Below, piece by piece: positions 7,317 through 20,188 of a stretch of DNA of 44,130 nt. The stretch comes from Marinifilum sp. GTDB lineage: Bacteria > Bacteroidota > Bacteroidia > Bacteroidales > CG2-30-32-10. Each line of letters opens with the position of its first letter. The first letter of the stretch is position 1. Location of the stretch: the NCBI GenBank assembly GCA_020718065.1, contig DYDE01000009.1, positions 13,730-57,859 on the forward strand, read 5' to 3'. Made by a program: the position numbers and the translations under genes. The notes under the pieces are model-generated. The model had not been told where the DNA came from, did no database searches, and saw nothing but the letters and a program-made list of their open reading frames with translations.

Positions 7317-10300
7317 ATGGTAAACAGAATCATCAGATTTTTCCTCGATAATAGACTTGTAACAACCATTTTATTATTTATTTTCATTATTTGGGGAGTT
7401 GTAACAGCACCATTTGAATGGAATACTGCATTTTTACCACGTACTCCCGTTCCGGTGGATGCAATACCAGATATTGGCGAAAATCAACAAATTGTAGCTA
7501 CAGAGTGGATGGGGCGTTCACCCAAGGACATTCAGGATCAGATCACCTACCCCCTTACCACTTCTCTTTTAGGAATTCCCGGGGTAAAAACCATCCGAAG
7601 CACATCTATGTTCGGCATGTCTTTTATTTATATCATCTTTAATGATAATATAGAATTTTACTGGAGCCGCTCCCGTGTGCTTGAAAAATTAAATTCTTTG
7701 CCTTCTGGACTTTTACCACCGGGTGTTCAACCTTCATTAGGTCCCGATGCCACAGCTTTGGGACAGATATTCTGGTATACCCTCGAAGGAAGAAACCCTA
7801 AAACTGGTCAACCTAACGGAGGTTGGGAGCCTCAGGAATTAAGAACCATTCAGGATTACTATGTTAAATATGCTTTGTCCTCTGCTGAAGGGGTTTCTGA
7901 AGTTGCTTCCATTGGGGGTTATGTAAAAGAATACCAGATCGACCTCGACCCCGTAGCCATGAAATCCTACAATGTTTCAATTATGGATGTGATGAAGGCA
8001 GTCCAGAACTCAAATCTTGACATAGGCGCAGAAACCATAGAATTAAACCAGGTTGAATATGTCATCAGGGGTTTGGGTTATATCAAATCAATTCAGGATC
8101 TCGAACAAACGGTGGTGAGTGTTAAAGACAATGTCCCCATAACTTTAAAACAAATTAGTCGGGTAAATTTCGGTCCCGCTACACGTCGTGGTGGATTAGA
8201 CAAATTTGGAATGGATGCGGTGGGTGCAGTGGTGGTTGCCCGCTATAAATCCAATCCTATGGAAGTGATCAACAACATCAAAAAGAAGATCGCTGAAATA
8301 GATCAGGGGCTTCCCACCAAAACACTTCCTGATGGTTCTGAAAGCAAAATCAACATCGTTCCTTTCTATGACCGCAGCGGATTGATCAGCGAAACCATTG
8401 GAACCTTAGAATCTGCTTTAACCCATGAAATTCTTATCAGCATCATTGTGATCATTGTTTTGGTTTTGAACTTAAGGGCTTCCTTTATTGTCTCATTTCT
8501 ATTACCAGTGGGTGTCCTGATGACTTTTGTTCTCATGTATAATTTTGGGGTAGATGCCAACATCGTTGCCCTTTCAGGGATTGCCATTGCTATTGGAGTG
8601 ATGGTTGACATCGGAATTGTAGACGTTGAGAATATCATCCGGCATCTCGAGATGCCGGAAAATAAAGATGTGCGTGGAAAATCATTAATTAATGTAATTT
8701 ACAAAGCCACTACACAGGTAAGGATGGCTGTTATAACGGGTCTTGCTACTACCATCATCAGCTTTTTACCCGTGTTTGCCATGGAAGCTGCCGAAGGTAA
8801 ATTGTTTAAACCTTTGGCATTTACCAAAACCTTTGCCATTCTTTCATCATTTATTCTGGGGATGGTAGTTTTACCCACTTTAGCATATTACATATTTTCT
8901 ATCCGTATCGATACAAAGAAGATTAAACGCATATGGAATGGACTGCTAATAGGAGGCGGTATTTTAATTCCTCTTATTTGGGGAGTGTGGCCAGCTATTG
9001 CCCTGTTATTTATCGGACTGAACAATCTGTTTCAATACAAATGGAAAGAAAAATACAAAGATATACCCGATCTCATAAATCTTGGGATTGTGGTGGTATA
9101 TGCCTTGTATTATTTGACCAAAGAATGGCTGCCCCTTGGTGCTGAAAATCATTTTACAAAAAACTTTTTATTTGTTATTGGACTCACAGGCTCCATACTT
9201 ACCATCATTTCATTGATGGTTAAATATTATGAACCTGTCCTTCGCTGGTGTCTTGCAAATAAAGTTAAGTTTTTAAGTATTCCTATTATTACTGTATTCT
9301 TTGGAATAATGGTCTGGCTGGGATTTAACAGAATATTTGGTTTTGTCGGAAATGGTACCGAGAAATTGGGAATGAATATTCGCAATACATCAATATGGCA
9401 GGGTATCACCCGTGTATTTCCGGGCACTGGCAATGAATTTATGCCGGCCCTGAACGAAGGTTCCTTTTTGCTCATGCCAACAAGTATGCCACATGCAGGT
9501 GTTGGAAAAAATCTTGAATATGTGAAACAGTTGGATATGCGCTTATCGACAATCCCAGAAGTTGAGTTGGTGGTGGGCAAATGGGGCCGGGTTAACTCTG
9601 CCCTCGACCCTGCAAATATTCAAATGTTTGAGAATGTCATCAACTACAAACCAGAATATGTCCTCGACCATGCTGGCCGTCGTATGCGTTTTAAAACCGA
9701 TGGAGAAGGCATTTATGTGCTCAAAAACGGAACCACTTACAATCCTGACGTGGAGGGTTTCAGAAAGATGGACACATCATTGCTTATTCATGATAACTCA
9801 GGTGAGTATTTCCGTCAGTGGAGGCCCAATATCCGAAAACCAGATGACATTTGGAAAGAAATTGTTAAAGTTACTAATTTACCAGGACTAACATCCGCTC
9901 CAAAACTACAACCTATCGAAACAAGATTGGTAATGCTATCAACAGGAATGAGAGCTCCTATGGGCATCAAAGTATACGGCCCCGATCTGGAAACAATAGA
10001 AAAGACAGGTATAGAAATTGGTAATCTTTTAAAGAATATTCCTTCTATTGAATCCTCTTCTGTTTTTGCAGAGAGAGGAGTCAGTGCACCTTATTTGCTT
10101 ATAGATATAGATCGTGAAGCCATTGCCAGGTATGGTCTGTCTATAAAAGATATCCAGGATGTTATTCAAACTGCTATTGGTGGAATGGAATTGACCAGAA
10201 CGGTGGAAGGTCGCGAACGTTTTCCTGTCAGGATAAGATACGCCCGTGAACTTAGAACCTCTCTCGAAGATTTACAAAAAATTCTCATTCCATCCATGAC

Positions 10301-11150
10301 CGGTGTTCAGGTTCCCCTGGGTGAACTAGTAAAGATTGAATATGAAACCGGTCCCCAGATGATCCGCAGTGAAAATACTTTTCTTACAGGATATGTGATT
10401 TTTGATAAAAAAGAAGGTTTTGCAGAAGTGGATGTGGTCAATCAGGCACAGGATTACCTGAAATCACAAATAACAAGTGGGGCTTTGGTCATTCCTAAGG
10501 GTGTTACTTATCACTTTGCAGGAAATTACGAACAACAGATCAGGGCAACCAAACGGCTTGCTATTGTTATCCCCATTAGCTTGATATTGATTTTTCTGAT
10601 TTTGTATTTTCAGTTTAAAACAGTCACAGCTTCATTTATTCACTTTTCCGGTGTGTTTGTGGCTTTTGCCGGTGGCTTTATTTTAATTTGGCTATATGGT
10701 CAGGGCTGGTTTATGAACTTTTCAGTAGCTGGCATCAATATGCGGGATCTATTTCAAATGCATACCATCAACCTCAGTGTGGCCGTCTGGGTCGGTTTCA
10801 TTGCTCTATTTGGTTTGGCAACCAACGATGGGGTGATTATGGGTACTTATATTCACCAGGTATTCGAAGAACGAAATCCCTCAACAGTTCATGATGTCCG
10901 TGAAGCAGTTATAGAAGCCGGCAAAAAGAGGGTCCGTCCTGCTATGATGACAGCTGCTGTAGCGATTATTGCATTATTACCAGTATTAACATCTACAGGT
11001 AAAGGCGCTGATATTATGGTACCTATGGCAATTCCCACCTTTGGTGGAATGGTTATTCAAATAATGACAATGTATGTGGTGCCTGTATTTCAGGCGATTT
11101 GGAGGGAAAGGATAATTAAGAAAGAAATAAAGGGAAATACATTGATATAA
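7317..11150 (+). CDS. cusA: CusA/CzcA-type heavy-metal efflux RND permease
   Basis: Inner-membrane proton-driven RND pump of 1277 residues, exporting Cu(I)/Ag(I) from periplasm or cytoplasm through the adaptor and outer-membrane channel encoded downstream. The start is typical of the HME subfamily (helix 1 at about 11-28, then PDIGENQQIVATEWMGRSP). The helix-4 charge relay AIAIGVMVDIGIVDVENIIRH and C-terminal GLATNDGVIMG are present. Three methionines match the metal-binding Met sites of E. coli CusA by context: M720 (SFLLMPTSM), M770 (NIQMFENVINYKPE) and M873 (RLVMLSTG). That favours copper/silver over Zn/Co/Cd. It is about 230 residues longer than E. coli CusA, owing to an extra hydrophobic insert at about residues 530-640 and a periplasmic insert after residue 770; both occur in Bacteroidota homologues. 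Its last codons overlap the left arm of the inverted repeat at 11133. Confidence 0.93.
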   Translation: MVNRIIRFFLDNRLVTTILLFIFIIWGVVTAPFEWNTAFLPRTPVPVDAIPDIGENQQIVATEWMGRSPKDIQDQITYPLTTSLLGIPGVKTIRSTSMFGMSFIYIIFNDNIEFYWSRSRVLEKLNSLPSGLLPPGVQPSLGPDATALGQIFWYTLEGRNPKTGQPNGGWEPQELRTIQDYYVKYALSSAEGVSEVASIGGYVKEYQIDLDPVAMKSYNVSIMDVMKAVQNSNLDIGAETIELNQVEYVIRGLGYIKSIQDLEQTVVSVKDNVPITLKQISRVNFGPATRRGGLDKFGMDAVGAVVVARYKSNPMEVINNIKKKIAEIDQGLPTKTLPDGSESKINIVPFYDRSGLISETIGTLESALTHEILISIIVIIVLVLNLRASFIVSFLLPVGVLMTFVLMYNFGVDANIVALSGIAIAIGVMVDIGIVDVENIIRHLEMPENKDVRGKSLINVIYKATTQVRMAVITGLATTIISFLPVFAMEAAEGKLFKPLAFTKTFAILSSFILGMVVLPTLAYYIFSIRIDTKKIKRIWNGLLIGGGILIPLIWGVWPAIALLFIGLNNLFQYKWKEKYKDIPDLINLGIVVVYALYYLTKEWLPLGAENHFTKNFLFVIGLTGSILTIISLMVKYYEPVLRWCLANKVKFLSIPIITVFFGIMVWLGFNRIFGFVGNGTEKLGMNIRNTSIWQGITRVFPGTGNEFMPALNEGSFLLMPTSMPHAGVGKNLEYVKQLDMRLSTIPEVELVVGKWGRVNSALDPANIQMFENVINYKPEYVLDHAGRRMRFKTDGEGIYVLKNGTTYNPDVEGFRKMDTSLLIHDNSGEYFRQWRPNIRKPDDIWKEIVKVTNLPGLTSAPKLQPIETRLVMLSTGMRAPMGIKVYGPDLETIEKTGIEIGNLLKNIPSIESSSVFAERGVSAPYLLIDIDREAIARYGLSIKDIQDVIQTAIGGMELTRTVEGRERFPVRIRYARELRTSLEDLQKILIPSMTGVQVPLGELVKIEYETGPQMIRSENTFLTGYVIFDKKEGFAEVDVVNQAQDYLKSQITSGALVIPKGVTYHFAGNYEQQIRATKRLAIVIPISLILIFLILYFQFKTVTASFIHFSGVFVAFAGGFILIWLYGQGWFMNFSVAGINMRDLFQMHTINLSVAVWVGFIALFGLATNDGVIMGTYIHQVFEERNPSTVHDVREAVIEAGKKRVRPAMMTAAVAIIALLPVLTSTGKGADIMVPMAIPTFGGMVIQIMTMYVVPVFQAIWRERIIKKEIKGNTLI

Positions 11151-11701
11151 ATAGAAATAAGTTGATATTAATGGAAATAATTGGAACAATTAAAATAAAA
11201 CTTTTATGGAAGAGAATAAAAAATATATACCAATAAAAGAGTTGAAAATATATCAATTAGCAAGACAATTGTCATCAATAGCCTGGGAAATTTATTCAAG
11301 AATGAGTTTTGAAGATAAGAAAACCATAGGGGATCAATTTATAAGATCAACGGATTCTATTGGAGCAAATATAGTAGAAGGGTATAGCAGATACCACTTT
11401 TTAGATAGAGTGAGATTTTATTATAATTCTCGGGCTTCTCAATCCGAAGCTACAGACCATTGGCTGGAATTATTATTAGAAAGAAACAAAATAGCACAGG
11501 AAACATTTAATCAATATAAACAAATCTCAAAAGACCTTCAAATAAAGCTTAATAATTTTATTAAACAAACAAAAGATGAAAACCAACAATAAATGCAATA
11601 TTTTAAAAATCCTTTGCAACTTACAATTTAAACCTATTTCAAAGCATTTCTATCTATTCCTTTGTATTTCTATCTATTTCAATTTATATCTATGTATTTC
11701 C
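11133..11701. mobile_element. IVS-like element: S23 four-helix-bundle gene between 27-bp inverted repeats
   Basis: The segment 11133-11159 (starting GGAAATACATTGATATAAAT) is the reverse complement of 11675-11701 at 25 of 27 positions. The arms enclose the four-helix-bundle gene and nothing else. Further degenerate copies of the same TTTCTATCTATT-type motif extend leftward from the right arm to about 11646. The left arm covers the last six codons and stop of cusA plus a few bases; the right arm encodes residues 34-42 of the TolC-like protein. Intervening sequences in 23S rRNA have the same design: an S23 gene between complementary ends. I infer that such an element was inserted, or seeded, at the cusA/TolC junction. 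Confidence 0.55.
11206..11592 (+). CDS. Four-helix-bundle protein (23S rRNA intervening-sequence/S23 family)
   Basis: A 128-residue all-helical protein. The family signature is clear: ELKIYQLARQLSSIAWEIYS in helix 1, QFIRSTDSIGANIVEGYSR between helices 1 and 2, then ASQSEATDHWLELLLERNKI and a C-terminal helix. Relatives are encoded in intervening sequences within 23S rRNA genes and widely in Bacteroidota chromosomes outside rRNA; the basic homopentamer surface suggests nucleic-acid binding, but the role is unknown. Here it interrupts an efflux operon. It starts 55 bp after cusA and its last 17 bp overlap the predicted start of the TolC gene. The flanking inverted repeats (11133-11159, 11675-11701) mark it as an inserted element rather than an efflux component. 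Confidence 0.88.
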   Translation: MEENKKYIPIKELKIYQLARQLSSIAWEIYSRMSFEDKKTIGDQFIRSTDSIGANIVEGYSRYHFLDRVRFYYNSRASQSEATDHWLELLLERNKIAQETFNQYKQISKDLQIKLNNFIKQTKDENQQ

Positions 11702-13042
11702 GTTTTTTCCCAATCCGACTCTCTAACAAATTATCTTGACATTGTTGCTAAAAATAATCCCGATTTAAAAGCAAAATACAATAAATACCTGGCCGATTTG
11801 CAGAAAGTTCCGCAGGTAGGCAGTTTGCCTGATCCTGATGTTTCTTTTGGCTATTTTATCAAACCTATGGAATTAGTAAGCGGCAACCAAATTGCTCAAA
11901 TACAGCTCATGCAAATGTTTCCTTGGTTTGGTACATTAAGAACAGCAAAAGATGAAGCTTCAAAAATGGCTTTATCTTCATTTGAATTATTCAGAGCGGA
12001 GAAAGAAGAAATATTTTTTAATGTCAGAACAAACTATTATCAGCTTTTTCTTACCCAAAAACAAATCCAGGTGTATGACACAACCCTTATTTTGCTCAAA
12101 AGCATCGAACAATTACTTATCATAAAATCCGGTACCATAAATTTAGGAAGCACAAACCCGGTAAATTTGGGACAGATCTCTAATGGCAACAATACCAGTG
12201 GAAATAGCGGGATGGGTATGAATACAAATAATCAGCCTTCAAATCAGCCTGGTAATACTTCTATGAATACTCCATCTATGGCAGGCAACAACTCCGCTTT
12301 TTCCGATTTGCTGCGATTAAAAGTCGAAATAAAAGAATTGGAAGACAATATTGCTTCCCTCCATAATCGAAAACAAATGCTGATTATACAGATCAATACC
12401 CTGTTGAATAGAAAAACAATCAGTGAAATTTATATCCCTGATAATTTGGAATTTCCTGTCTTCGATTTTTATAATCCTGCTTTGTTTGACAGTATTAAAG
12501 AGAACAATCCAATGGTAAAAATGAATAAAGCGGACATATTAGCTTATCAGGAAAGACAAAAGATGAACAAAAAAATGGGTTATCCTATGTTTGGCATCGG
12601 TTTAAATTATATGTTGATTAATAAAAGTGATATGAGTAGTTCTGCTATGAATGGTAAAGATATGATGATGCCAATGCTTTCTGTAAAATTGCCGCTATAT
12701 CGCAAAAAATACAATGCGTCCATTAAAGAAGCACAATATCTGGAAATTTCCTCCAATGCGCAATTATTAAATGCCGAAAACATGCTTTTTATGGAGTATT
12801 CCGAATACCAGTTTGCGCTGAAAGATGCAGAACGCAAATTATCACTTTATCAGGATATTGTTTTATTAACAAAAAAGAATTTCGATTTGTTATTGGTGCA
12901 ATACTATACTTCAGGAGCCGATTTTGATGCTTTAATAAGATTACAACGGCAGCTGCTCGATTACAAATTAAGTATTATACAAGCTGGGGTAGACAAGCTA
13001 GCTGCCATTGCCGGATTACAAAAATTACTATCAAAAAATTAA
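11576..13042 (+). CDS. cusC: TolC-family outer-membrane efflux channel (CusC-like)
   Basis: Outer-membrane channel subunit of the tripartite pump, 488 residues. Mature family features start near residue 47: SLTNYLDIVAKNNPDLKAKY, GSLPDPDVSFGYFIKPMEL, QLMQMFPWFGTLRTAKDEAS, long coiled helices, and the second OEP repeat ending GVDKLAAIAGLQKL. Residues about 200-245 are a Met/Asn/Gly-rich insert (SGMGMNTNNQPSNQ) that could bind copper. The N-terminus is unusual: the only upstream start overlaps the four-helix-bundle gene, giving about 24 extra residues before an atypical signal helix (FYLFLCISIYFNLYLCISVF, residues 25-44). Part of that helix is encoded by the right inverted repeat. The signal sequence may therefore have been partly rebuilt by the insertion; the true start is uncertain. 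Confidence 0.85.
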   Translation: MKTNNKCNILKILCNLQFKPISKHFYLFLCISIYFNLYLCISVFSQSDSLTNYLDIVAKNNPDLKAKYNKYLADLQKVPQVGSLPDPDVSFGYFIKPMELVSGNQIAQIQLMQMFPWFGTLRTAKDEASKMALSSFELFRAEKEEIFFNVRTNYYQLFLTQKQIQVYDTTLILLKSIEQLLIIKSGTINLGSTNPVNLGQISNGNNTSGNSGMGMNTNNQPSNQPGNTSMNTPSMAGNNSAFSDLLRLKVEIKELEDNIASLHNRKQMLIIQINTLLNRKTISEIYIPDNLEFPVFDFYNPALFDSIKENNPMVKMNKADILAYQERQKMNKKMGYPMFGIGLNYMLINKSDMSSSAMNGKDMMMPMLSVKLPLYRKKYNASIKEAQYLEISSNAQLLNAENMLFMEYSEYQFALKDAERKLSLYQDIVLLTKKNFDLLLVQYYTSGADFDALIRLQRQLLDYKLSIIQAGVDKLAAIAGLQKLLSKN

Positions 13043-13054
13043 GCACAACCTATT

Positions 13055-14782
13055 ATGAAAAAATTAATAAAAAACAGATATTTCCAATGGACAATTTTAT
13101 TATTGTCTGGTATATTCCTTGGATGGTTGTTATTCCATAAAACAGCAACACCAAATAAAAACAATTATTCTGATACAAAAAGTATTGGTACCATTTGGAC
13201 CTGCTCCATGCATCCGCAAATTCGCCGCGATAAACCGGGTAACTGTCCGATTTGTGGTATGACACTGATACCACTTAATCAGAATACTGACACTACTGGT
13301 ATAGGTGCCATCTCATTTACAACTGATGCATTGCAACTGGCAAATGTTCAAACCAGCATTGTAAAAATTGAAAAACCCGAAAAAGCAGTCCGTATGTATG
13401 GCCGTATAGAATCAGACGAGCGATTGGTACAAACAATACCTGCTCATATCCCGGGACGAATTGAGGAATTATTGGTAAACTTCACTGGTGATGTGGTGGT
13501 GAAAGGCCAAACTATTGCCATAATATATTCTCCTACATTAATCCAGGCGCAACAAGAGTTAATTGAAGCAAAAAAACTATCGAATACTTTGCCAGGAGCT
13601 TTGCAAGCAGCTAGAGAAAAATTGCGTCAATGGAAACTTACTGAAAAACAAATTTCAGATATTGAAAATACTGAAAAAATAATTTCAAATTTTGAAGTAA
13701 AATCAACAGTTTCTGGCATTATTACTAAAAAAATAGTGAATCAGGGCGATTATGTTTCTCAGGGTTCTCCTTTATATGAAGTTTCTGATTTATCAAAAGT
13801 ATGGGTTATTTTTGATGCCTATGAAAGCGATTTGCCCTGGATAAAGCAAGGTGATAAAGTTCAGTTTACTTTACAATCAATCCCTGGAAAAAGCTTTTCT
13901 GAAAACATTTCTTTTATAGCTCCGATAATTGACAATTTAACCAGGGTAGCAAAAGTCCGTATTGAACTAGTAAATAAAGGAGGGATGTTTAAACCTGGTA
14001 TGTTTGTAACCGGAGTGGTTAATGCAAAGTTAGAAGGCTTTAAAGACAATATCATCATACCAAGCTCCGCAGTCCTTTGGACAGGAAAGCGTTCGGTGGT
14101 ATATGTTAAGATTCCAAATACCCAAATGCCTACATTTGAAATGAGAGAAATTGATTTAGGTCCCGAATTAGGCGGTAGTTTTGTGGTACTTGCTGGTTTA
14201 AATGAAGGGGAAGAAATGGTTACAAATGGCGTTTTTAGTGTTGATGCAGCTGCACAGTTAGCTGGCAAAACAAGTATGATGAATCGCAATACCAATACCA
14301 AAAATGAAGTTATTCCTGATTACCGGAAACAAACATCAACAAATCTTGCATCACAATTAAGTATCATTTTCAACTCTTATATTCTTTTAAAAGATAAACT
14401 TGTTTCAACTGATGCAAGTGAAGCATTTACAGAAGCTCAAAATCTGCAACAAACCATTTCATCAACGGATATGAATCTTTTTCAAGCAGCAACACATGAT
14501 TATTGGATGATAAAGAGCAATTTAGTATTAACATCATTAAAAGAGATAAACAAAAATTCAAATATTGATGAAATCCGAAAATCATTTATCCTGATATCCG
14601 AAAATCTGATTAAATTATTCAAAGCCTTTGGTACAGGAAATAACAAAGCCTTTGTTCAATTTTGCCCTATGGCAAACCAAAACATAGGCGCATTTTGGTT
14701 GAGTACCGAAAAGCAAATTAAAAATCCATACTATGGCAACCTGATGCTCACATGCGGAGAAACCAGAGACACGCTTAAATAA
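13055..14782 (+). CDS. cusB: CusB-type RND adaptor with metal-binding and DUF3347 domains
   Basis: Membrane-fusion/adaptor subunit, 575 residues, anchored by an N-terminal hydrophobic segment (about 11-27). An N-terminal heavy-metal-binding domain has ligands C50, H53, C64 and C67 (WTCSMHPQI..GNCPICGM). The adaptor core follows: barrel-sandwich strands around a helical hairpin (ETIAIIYSPTLIQAQQEL is approximate; the sequence reads GQTIAIIYSPTLIQAQQEL), then beta-barrel (VWVIFDAYESDLPWIKQGD) and VVYVKIPN/GLNEGEEMVTNGVF segments. Residues about 435-575 form a DUF3347-like domain with KAFVQFCPMANQNIGAFWLS and NPYYGNLMLTCGE, known as a CusB fusion in this phylum. It likely receives Cu(I)/Ag(I) from the small lipoproteins and feeds CusA. 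It starts 12 bp after the TolC gene. Confidence 0.92.
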   Translation: MKKLIKNRYFQWTILLLSGIFLGWLLFHKTATPNKNNYSDTKSIGTIWTCSMHPQIRRDKPGNCPICGMTLIPLNQNTDTTGIGAISFTTDALQLANVQTSIVKIEKPEKAVRMYGRIESDERLVQTIPAHIPGRIEELLVNFTGDVVVKGQTIAIIYSPTLIQAQQELIEAKKLSNTLPGALQAAREKLRQWKLTEKQISDIENTEKIISNFEVKSTVSGIITKKIVNQGDYVSQGSPLYEVSDLSKVWVIFDAYESDLPWIKQGDKVQFTLQSIPGKSFSENISFIAPIIDNLTRVAKVRIELVNKGGMFKPGMFVTGVVNAKLEGFKDNIIIPSSAVLWTGKRSVVYVKIPNTQMPTFEMREIDLGPELGGSFVVLAGLNEGEEMVTNGVFSVDAAAQLAGKTSMMNRNTNTKNEVIPDYRKQTSTNLASQLSIIFNSYILLKDKLVSTDASEAFTEAQNLQQTISSTDMNLFQAATHDYWMIKSNLVLTSLKEINKNSNIDEIRKSFILISENLIKLFKAFGTGNNKAFVQFCPMANQNIGAFWLSTEKQIKNPYYGNLMLTCGETRDTLK

Positions 14783-18916: not shown

Positions 18917-19033
18917 ATTTATATGTTTTTATTATTATTTATTTTTACAAAAAAAAACTTCATTCCTTTTAGGCTGAATACGCCATATTATTAACCAACC
19001 AATTGATAATTGATAATTGCAAATTGTTAATTG

Positions 19034-20188
19034 TTAGGAGAAGATAGGATTTAATTTACCAACTACTTGTTGCAATTTTTCAATAAATAATGTGATATCT
19101 TTTTCACTGTTGTATCTTCCAAAACTTATACGAATTGAACCACGCGCTTCAAATTGATTTAATCCAATAGCTTGCAAAACATGTGATGCCTGATTGTCTC
19201 CGTTTGACGAACATGCCGAACCAGATGAGACTGCTATTCCCATTTCATCGAGCAACAAAAGCAAACGAATACTTTCTCCCTCCATCCCACTGATACAAAA
19301 ATTTATATTATGTGGCAAACGCATTTTTAAATCACCATTAAAATAAATTCCTTCAAAGTTTTCTGCAAGGTAAAATATCAACCTGTTTTGTAATTCTTTG
19401 ATGCGCAGGTTTTCGCTTTCCATTTCAGCAAAACACAAGGCTACCGCCTTTGTAAAACCAACTATTCCGGCAATGTTTTCTGTAGAAGAACGCATACCAA
19501 ATTCCTGACCACCCCCATGCAACAAAGGCACGATATTGGTATTCTTTTTTACGACTAAAGCTCCAATACCTTTAGGACCGTAAATCTTATGGGAATTAAT
19601 TGTTAATAGGTCAATGTTTTGTATATCAATAGGTATTTTCCCAAACGATTGGCAAGCATCCGAATGGAAATATACATCTTTTTCCTTGCATATTTTACCT
19701 ATTTCCGATATGGGCTGGATGGTTCCAATTTCATTGTTGACATGCATCACTGAGACAAGTATTGTTTTGCGGTTTATTGCCCGTTTCAGGAAATCCAGAT
19801 CAACAAAACCATCTTTACTAATTGGCAAATAGGTAACATAAAAACCTTGACCTTCCAGCCACTTACATGTATTTAAAACACAATCGTGTTCGAAAGAGGA
19901 AATAATAATATGGTTTCCTTTAGAACGATTTGCAAATGCAATGCCTTTAATAGCAAAATTGTTGGCTTCTGTGCCACTGGATGTGAAAACAATTTCTTCT
20001 GGTTCGCATTTCAAATAATGTGCAATTTGACTTCTTGATTCAGCGATTTGCTCCTTTGCACTTGTTCCAAATTGATGTAAACTAGATGCATTGCCATAAT
20101 TACTTATTAAATAGGGCATCATTGTATCAAGCACCCGTTTGTCAATACAAGTAGTAGCAGCGTTATCTAAGTAAATTTTGTTTTCCAT
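19034..20188 (-). CDS. NifS/IscS-type cysteine desulfurase
   Basis: PLP-dependent enzyme that takes sulfur from cysteine as an enzyme persulfide for Fe-S cluster or thio-cofactor assembly; 384 residues. ATG at 20188 gives the family start MENKIYLDNAATTCIDKRVL; the frame's further ATG adds seven untypical residues. Landmarks: SSGTEANNFAIKG, HVNNEIGTIQPI, PLP lysine K201 (TINSHKIYGPKG), TENIAGIVG, and active cysteine C326 in SSGSACSSNG, a group I loop. Its place between a GTPase (36 bp) and a multi-cluster Fe-S protein, and not next to IscU, SufBCD or tRNA-thiolation genes, suggests a dedicated sulfur donor for one pathway. It could also serve as general IscS; other copies cannot be excluded. 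Confidence 0.92.
   Translation of the reverse strand: MENKIYLDNAATTCIDKRVLDTMMPYLISNYGNASSLHQFGTSAKEQIAESRSQIAHYLKCEPEEIVFTSSGTEANNFAIKGIAFANRSKGNHIIISSFEHDCVLNTCKWLEGQGFYVTYLPISKDGFVDLDFLKRAINRKTILVSVMHVNNEIGTIQPISEIGKICKEKDVYFHSDACQSFGKIPIDIQNIDLLTINSHKIYGPKGIGALVVKKNTNIVPLLHGGGQEFGMRSSTENIAGIVGFTKAVALCFAEMESENLRIKELQNRLIFYLAENFEGIYFNGDLKMRLPHNINFCISGMEGESIRLLLLLDEMGIAVSSGSACSSNGDNQASHVLQAIGLNQFEARGSIRISFGRYNSEKDITLFIEKLQQVVGKLNPIFS

Follow-up and report, generated by a model that had tools for sequence, protein, structure and literature searches.

The S23 gene of the cus operon and its arms

The window analysed here, a stretch of 44,130 nucleotides from Marinifilum sp. (GenBank assembly GCA_020718065.1, contig DYDE01000009.1), carries a cus-type metal efflux operon in which a small gene of the S23 family lies between inverted repeats; the family was originally recognised in insertions within 23S ribosomal RNA. 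The features are listed below in window coordinates.

7317-11150, forward strand: cusA-type (CusA/CzcA) RND metal pump gene (TIGR00914, 749 bits; PF00873), the last codons and stop codon of which extend into the 5' arm
11126-11186, forward strand: 5' arm, degenerate 10-nt tandem repeats of the GAAATAnnTT type, core 11133-11159, recognised by the inverted repeat and the lag-10 periodicity
11206-11592, forward strand: S23 (23S_rRNA_IVP) four-helix-bundle gene, 128 aa (PF05635, E = 4.7e-20; TIGR02436)
11576-13042, forward strand: tolC-type outer membrane efflux gene (OEP; PF02321, E = 1.8e-30)
11648-11708, forward strand: 3' arm, complementary 10-nt tandem repeats of the ATTTCTATCT type, core 11675-11701, recognised by the inverted repeat, the periodicity and the ORF list
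13055-14782, forward strand: cusB-type adaptor gene (PF16576, PF19335), in the same operon as cusA and tolC

Once one of them is reverse-complemented, the core arms match at 25 of 27 positions, and a repeat search extends them to 61 nt each with 74% complementarity. Their local-alignment score of 50 was reached by none of 2000 dinucleotide shuffles (mean 21.2, sd 2.9, maximum 37). Both arms consist of 10-nt units, with a self-match of 0.65 at lag 10 and 0.67-0.69 at lag 20; no Rfam match was found in the window. The ATG predicted for tolC, a start codon taken from the ORF list, gives a 17-nt overlap with the end of the S23 gene, and the 3' arm lies inside the tolC ORF, where it encodes the hydrophobic leader stretch LCISIYFNLYLCISVFS. 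The signal peptide of the TolC-type protein appears to be built out of element repeats. Under the reading favoured below, annotators would have to reckon with gaps between operon genes, and with signal peptides like this one, that consist of element arms.

PF05635 is the sole domain match of the S23 protein, which possesses neither a Y1 transposase domain nor any transposase, and to our knowledge its four-helix bundle contains no known catalytic motif. The AlphaFold2 model is such a bundle (mean pLDDT 96.7), so that the four-helix-bundle gene between 27-bp inverted repeats described in the initial annotation is confirmed by profile, fold and shuffling alike. Among solved structures the best matches are Xcc0516 of Xanthomonas campestris (2gsc, TM 0.84) and then BT_0352 (2rld, TM 0.75), both entries containing five chains; by a title cited in PMC10053308, Xcc0516 has been published as five four-helix bundles. 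The next matches are Avd of the Bordetella phage diversity-generating retroelement (DGR; 4dwl, TM 0.75) and Avd within the DGR ribonucleoprotein 8ub7.

Inverted arms at other S23 loci

The genome from which the window derives contains 14 PF05635 matches, and the family is present, in one or more copies, in 44 of 60 of its relatives; S23/IVP genes are thus a frequent feature of bacterial genomes. S23 loci were picked by best profile score, and the 300 nt upstream of each gene were aligned with the reverse complement of the 300 nt downstream. Against flanks swapped between loci, a control that leaves shared ancestry within S23 subfamilies in place, 73 of the 99 loci of a first set scored above the 95th percentile and 55 above the 99th, a level attained by 0 of 62 control ORFs. 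An independent set of 77 loci spanning Bacteroidota, candidate phyla, Acidobacteria, Clostridia, Geobacter, Fibrobacter and others gave 65 above the 95th percentile. When all S23 loci were combined, 194 of 246 exceeded the 95th percentile of swapped flanks and 144 the 99th. Many of the genomes are metagenome-assembled; complete plasmids and long isolate contigs agree with them, and each of the nine plasmid loci that were looked at has arms (eight of these loci are cyanobacterial and one is from Riemerella).

The element of the window is therefore typical of S23 loci and not exceptional: the initial annotation was right to recognise an IVS-like S23 element in a protein operon, and this is the usual setting of S23 genes. 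It had also regarded four-helix-bundle genes devoid of such arms as evidence against its proposal. This case is encountered in a mild form, about one fifth of the S23 genes having no detectable arms.

Repeat words, periods and their link to the protein

Within the S23 arms self-match peaks at 0.53 at lag 7 and 0.52 at lag 14, compared with about 0.3 at other lags. The best period among 144 loci was 7 at 106 of them, 8 at 26, 9 at five, 6 at four and 10 at three, the window being among the last; in L088, its closest relative among those whose arms were scored, the units are 10 nt long too. The word itself varies from locus to locus (AATTACG, AGTTGCG, CAGTGGC, ACCGTGG and others), and the coding strand of the 5' arm is G-rich and C-poor at 49 loci as against five.

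To relate word to protein we considered only pairs whose members come from different genomes and have non-orthologous flanks. Among these, the higher the protein identity, the more similar the arms (Mantel r = 0.117, 0 of 500 permutations): pairs with similar arms make up 0.2% of those below 30% protein identity and 64% of those at 70% or above, the latter class comprising 11 pairs. Likewise, a locus and its nearest protein neighbour from another genome have the same period 75% of the time, compared with 57% after permutation (reached by 0 of 2000 permutations). Word and period thus go with the protein subfamily, also where the sites are unrelated; the correlation is weak overall, and its strong part rests on few close pairs. 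This link suggests that an S23 oligomer recognises its own word, and such an oligomer, which comprises five subunits in the solved structures, would bind that word as DNA or as RNA.

Arrays of period 7 or 8 also occur away from S23 genes. In random stretches we counted 13 of them in 399 kb from S23-bearing genomes and none in 342 kb from genomes of the same order that lack S23. For arms that are AT-rich and repetitive, as these are, one might invoke chance or plain low complexity, but this origin is contradicted by the window shuffles and by the swapped-flank, control-ORF and S23-less-genome controls; we reject it, considering its probability to be negligible.

Position of the elements within operons

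The S23 gene lies in sense with both neighbours at 137 loci (74 within the same order, 63 across many phyla) and antisense to both at five (two and three, respectively). The 5' arm starts at a median of 2.5 nt past the upstream stop codon, which is TAG in 37% of cases, compared with 14% of background ORFs (p = 2e-5). Sites that could be named from sequence include fadB-fadA, sdhA-sdhB, recJ-nadD and hisA-hisF, to which accB-accC can be added (accC was identified with Pfam, accB from its biotinyl motif). Pairing of the arms within each element, variation of the word between elements and sense placement in operon gaps beside the upstream stop codon are all shown by these data.

On cyanobacterial plasmids (L352, L357) the gene order is cas6-S23-cas4, with heptamer arms. 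23S_rRNA_IVP genes beside cas4 and cas6 have been treated as having a CRISPR-associated function (PMC3936711). They belong to the same gene family, and in the present reading cas operons are one of many insertion sites; the published genes may be such insertions. If this is true, the apparent CRISPR association of S23 genes would be explained.

Orthologous junctions

At fadB-fadA in Flavobacterium and at sdhA-sdhB in the family of a Polaribacter genome (G061), orthologous junctions were of three kinds: some are empty, with a plain gap of about 5-19 bp, some hold a repeat hairpin that lacks a gene, and some hold an S23 gene between arms; certain S23 copies are truncated or degenerate. One locus (L341) retains the tail of an S23 gene that is present in another (L314), and some gene-less sites are therefore scars. 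For the cusA-tolC junction, relatives possess a plain gap in six cases (L017-L020, L022, L023), a solo array in one (L031) and a gene-less hairpin in two (L021, L027). The initial annotation had proposed comparing orthologous cus operons, and had held that relatives keeping both arms at this place without the gene would speak against it; two such hairpins do exist, but their word differs from that of the window. These mild cases, like the S23 genes devoid of arms, are better read as the result of decay than as a sign that the design is false, given that S23 genes also occur in truncated and degenerate form.

In several Flavobacterium species that carry S23 after fadA, a similar word recurs in the gene-less hairpin on the other side of fadA, and in two species with a divergent S23 (L292, L296) a different word is common to both places around fadA. 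At fadB-fadA, the words of S23-bearing species differ from those of the gene-less hairpins of their relatives; gene-less hairpins at sdhA-sdhB gave no match with those S23 arms that were retrieved from their own genomes. Gene-less hairpins at these junctions are also present in genomes without S23 (G142, G130). Another inverted repeat, of the CCCCCTAACCCCCAAAGGGGG type, was observed in Flavobacterium gaps around fadA (L285, L302, L307) and is apparently a separate repeat family occupying the same sites.

The explanation we favour, and hold to be somewhat probable, is a widespread family of small elements, each composed of an S23/IVP gene between inverted arrays of a short word (mostly 7 nt, 10 nt here) that its own product recognises, and probably mobile. 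Under this explanation, some process that employs the arms would place copies of the element and of the gene-less hairpins in further operon gaps; arrays of heptamers standing alone would be by-products or remnants. The element of the window would have landed between cusA and tolC, the leader of tolC now using arm sequence. Against this explanation stand a search of the window's genome for gene-less copies of its own word, which found none (other hits look unrelated), the comparison of solo arrays with S23 arms described below, the mismatch of words at sdhA-sdhB, the overall weakness of the word-protein correlation and the lack of an encoded transposase. The S23 gene linked to fadA, moreover, stays at the same place in several Flavobacterium species; it is fixed there as a host gene would be, which also counts against a mobile element. 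Its median dN/dS is 0.124 (a simple estimate, with high dS), and the protein is therefore kept: purifying selection on S23 is shown for one old site.

Alternatively, the arms could belong to the target, heptamer hairpins arising alone and S23 genes entering their loops, much as IVSs replace rRNA tetraloops. The gene-less hairpins at the same junctions, including those of S23-less genomes, are what such a route predicts, and 23S IVSs are indeed located in helix loops (PMC4990558). Pre-existing hairpins do not, however, account for a word and period that track the protein at unrelated sites, nor for the dissimilar words at fadB-fadA; the remnant in L341 shows that some hairpins are scars, and the sampled S23-less genomes gave no arrays of period 7 or 8. 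Insertion into pre-existing hairpins is thus disfavoured, above all by the coupling of word and protein, and we regard it as improbable.

The arms as an RNA stem

According to the initial annotation, the complementary arms would form a stem in the cus mRNA, perhaps excised or processed. The strand test lends this no support. Arm mismatches that would be G.U on the sense strand number 96, those of the A.C type 153; folding slightly favours the antisense strand, which is the more stable one in 59 S23 arm pairs as against 46, and in 15 of 20 gene-less hairpins. Judged on this pattern, the arms look as though they were produced as complements and then decayed, rather than being maintained as an mRNA stem.

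The strand test weighs on what we consider the main rival to a mobile element family, namely a device that works on the operon RNA in the manner of a 23S IVS: the arms would pair in the operon mRNA, an enzyme of the RNase III type would cut them, and S23 or the cut would set the expression of the flanking genes. The strong sense orientation and co-transcription of S23 elements, the long-term purifying selection at an operon site, the published cleavage of an IVS stem by RNase III in Coxiella (PMC4990558) and the membership of Avd, a structural relative of S23, in a ribonucleoprotein are all in its favour. Nevertheless, with no excess of sense G.U and a slightly more stable antisense fold, mRNA pairing does not look selected, and the element is missing from many orthologous operons; such a device is, in our estimation, unlikely.

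The resemblance to Avd raises another possibility, in which a reverse transcriptase supplied in trans is the partner of S23, as one is of Avd in DGRs, and template slippage during cDNA synthesis produces the arms. Slippage of this kind would explain the tandem words, the complementary arms and the sense orientation at once. It gains from the fold match to Avd, including that of 8ub7, from the sense orientation itself and from arms that look complementary at birth and decaying thereafter. Window S23 and Avd share a fold and about 11% identity. We consider this scenario distinctly improbable.

Relation to known systems and to dispersed heptamers

With the IVSs of 23S rRNA, the elements described here share the protein family (a four-helix-bundle S23/IVP protein in the window, as its similarity to Xcc0516 indicates), complementary terminal arms around the ORF, sense placement in a transcribed unit and a sporadic distribution. 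They differ in occupying protein operons and not 23S helices, the window element lying between cusA and tolC, and in having arms made of tandem short words that vary with the protein subfamily. RAYT/REPIN systems offer a second parallel, in that a gene is flanked by its own inverted repeats, non-autonomous inverted pairs exist and the repeat words are family-specific; S23, however, has no Y1 (HUH) transposase, and its words form tandem arrays of 7-10 nt units in place of single palindromes. A repeat specific to the protein lineage is found in S23, and the resemblance is accordingly one of logic, not of membership. The comparison with a classical insertion sequence fails on the transposase, which the S23 protein lacks; at the junctions compared we saw no movement event, and the empty ones defined no target-site duplication.

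Small dispersed repeats provide the remaining point of contact. Tandem 7-nt intergenic units resembling the cyanobacterial STRR are the commonest form of S23 arm, although the window itself has 10-nt units, and the arms of cyanobacterial plasmid S23 genes are heptameric as well; STRR, TAACTGA and GGGAATC appear to be the same kind of repeat as S23 arms. TAACTGA is a published dispersed heptamer repeat (PMC4679880), and GGGAATC heptamers form 70-75 inverted pairs per genome in Xanthomonas (PMC4692102); in the searched text of these two articles, no link between heptamers and S23 was found. Nor did we find literature tying S23 genes to heptamer arrays, a novelty that is provisional given that most subscription papers lay outside our search. 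As a test of prediction, 398 Pseudomonadota genomes were searched for tandem GGGAATC; three possess it and were picked on that ground alone. Two of the three contain exactly one S23 gene each, and the third has none. Both genes occupy the accB-accC gap. The word of the arms is GGGAATC in L422 and GGGATTC, which differs from it by one base, in L421, and the prediction thus held in the two genomes having S23.

Solo arrays agree less well: three of 14 show a strong match to an S23 arm within the same genome and the rest do not, part of the S23 copies having been sampled. The window contains one such array at 18999-19042 (AATTGATAATTGATAATTGC...), for which no match was found among the sampled S23 arms of its genome.

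Returning to the mobile element family, a broader version of it may be put forward tentatively, as a possibility that we hold with less confidence than the family itself. S23 would be the word-recognising protein of an undescribed class of minimal mobile elements, with protein-specific inverted arrays of 7-10 nt units, spread in sense orientation across the operon gaps of many phyla; part of the dispersed heptamers (STRR, GGGAATC) would be its products, and the IVSs of 23S rRNA its rRNA branch. In the literature found, S23/IVP has no assigned role outside 23S rRNA, and STRR, TAACTGA and GGGAATC are likewise without a source. A protein-specific repeat word would join these two puzzles, the identity of S23 genes and the origin of dispersed 7-base repeats, and makes both of them testable.

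Two further arrangements were noted among the loci. At positions 3102-4595 of L139 (genome G041), complementary heptamer arrays surround a beta-glucosidase-like gene, with no S23 gene between them. The S23 arms of L113 (genome G050) contain a CGCTCGCTGCGCTCGC palindrome between GACATT words and differ in this from the usual plain tandem arrays.
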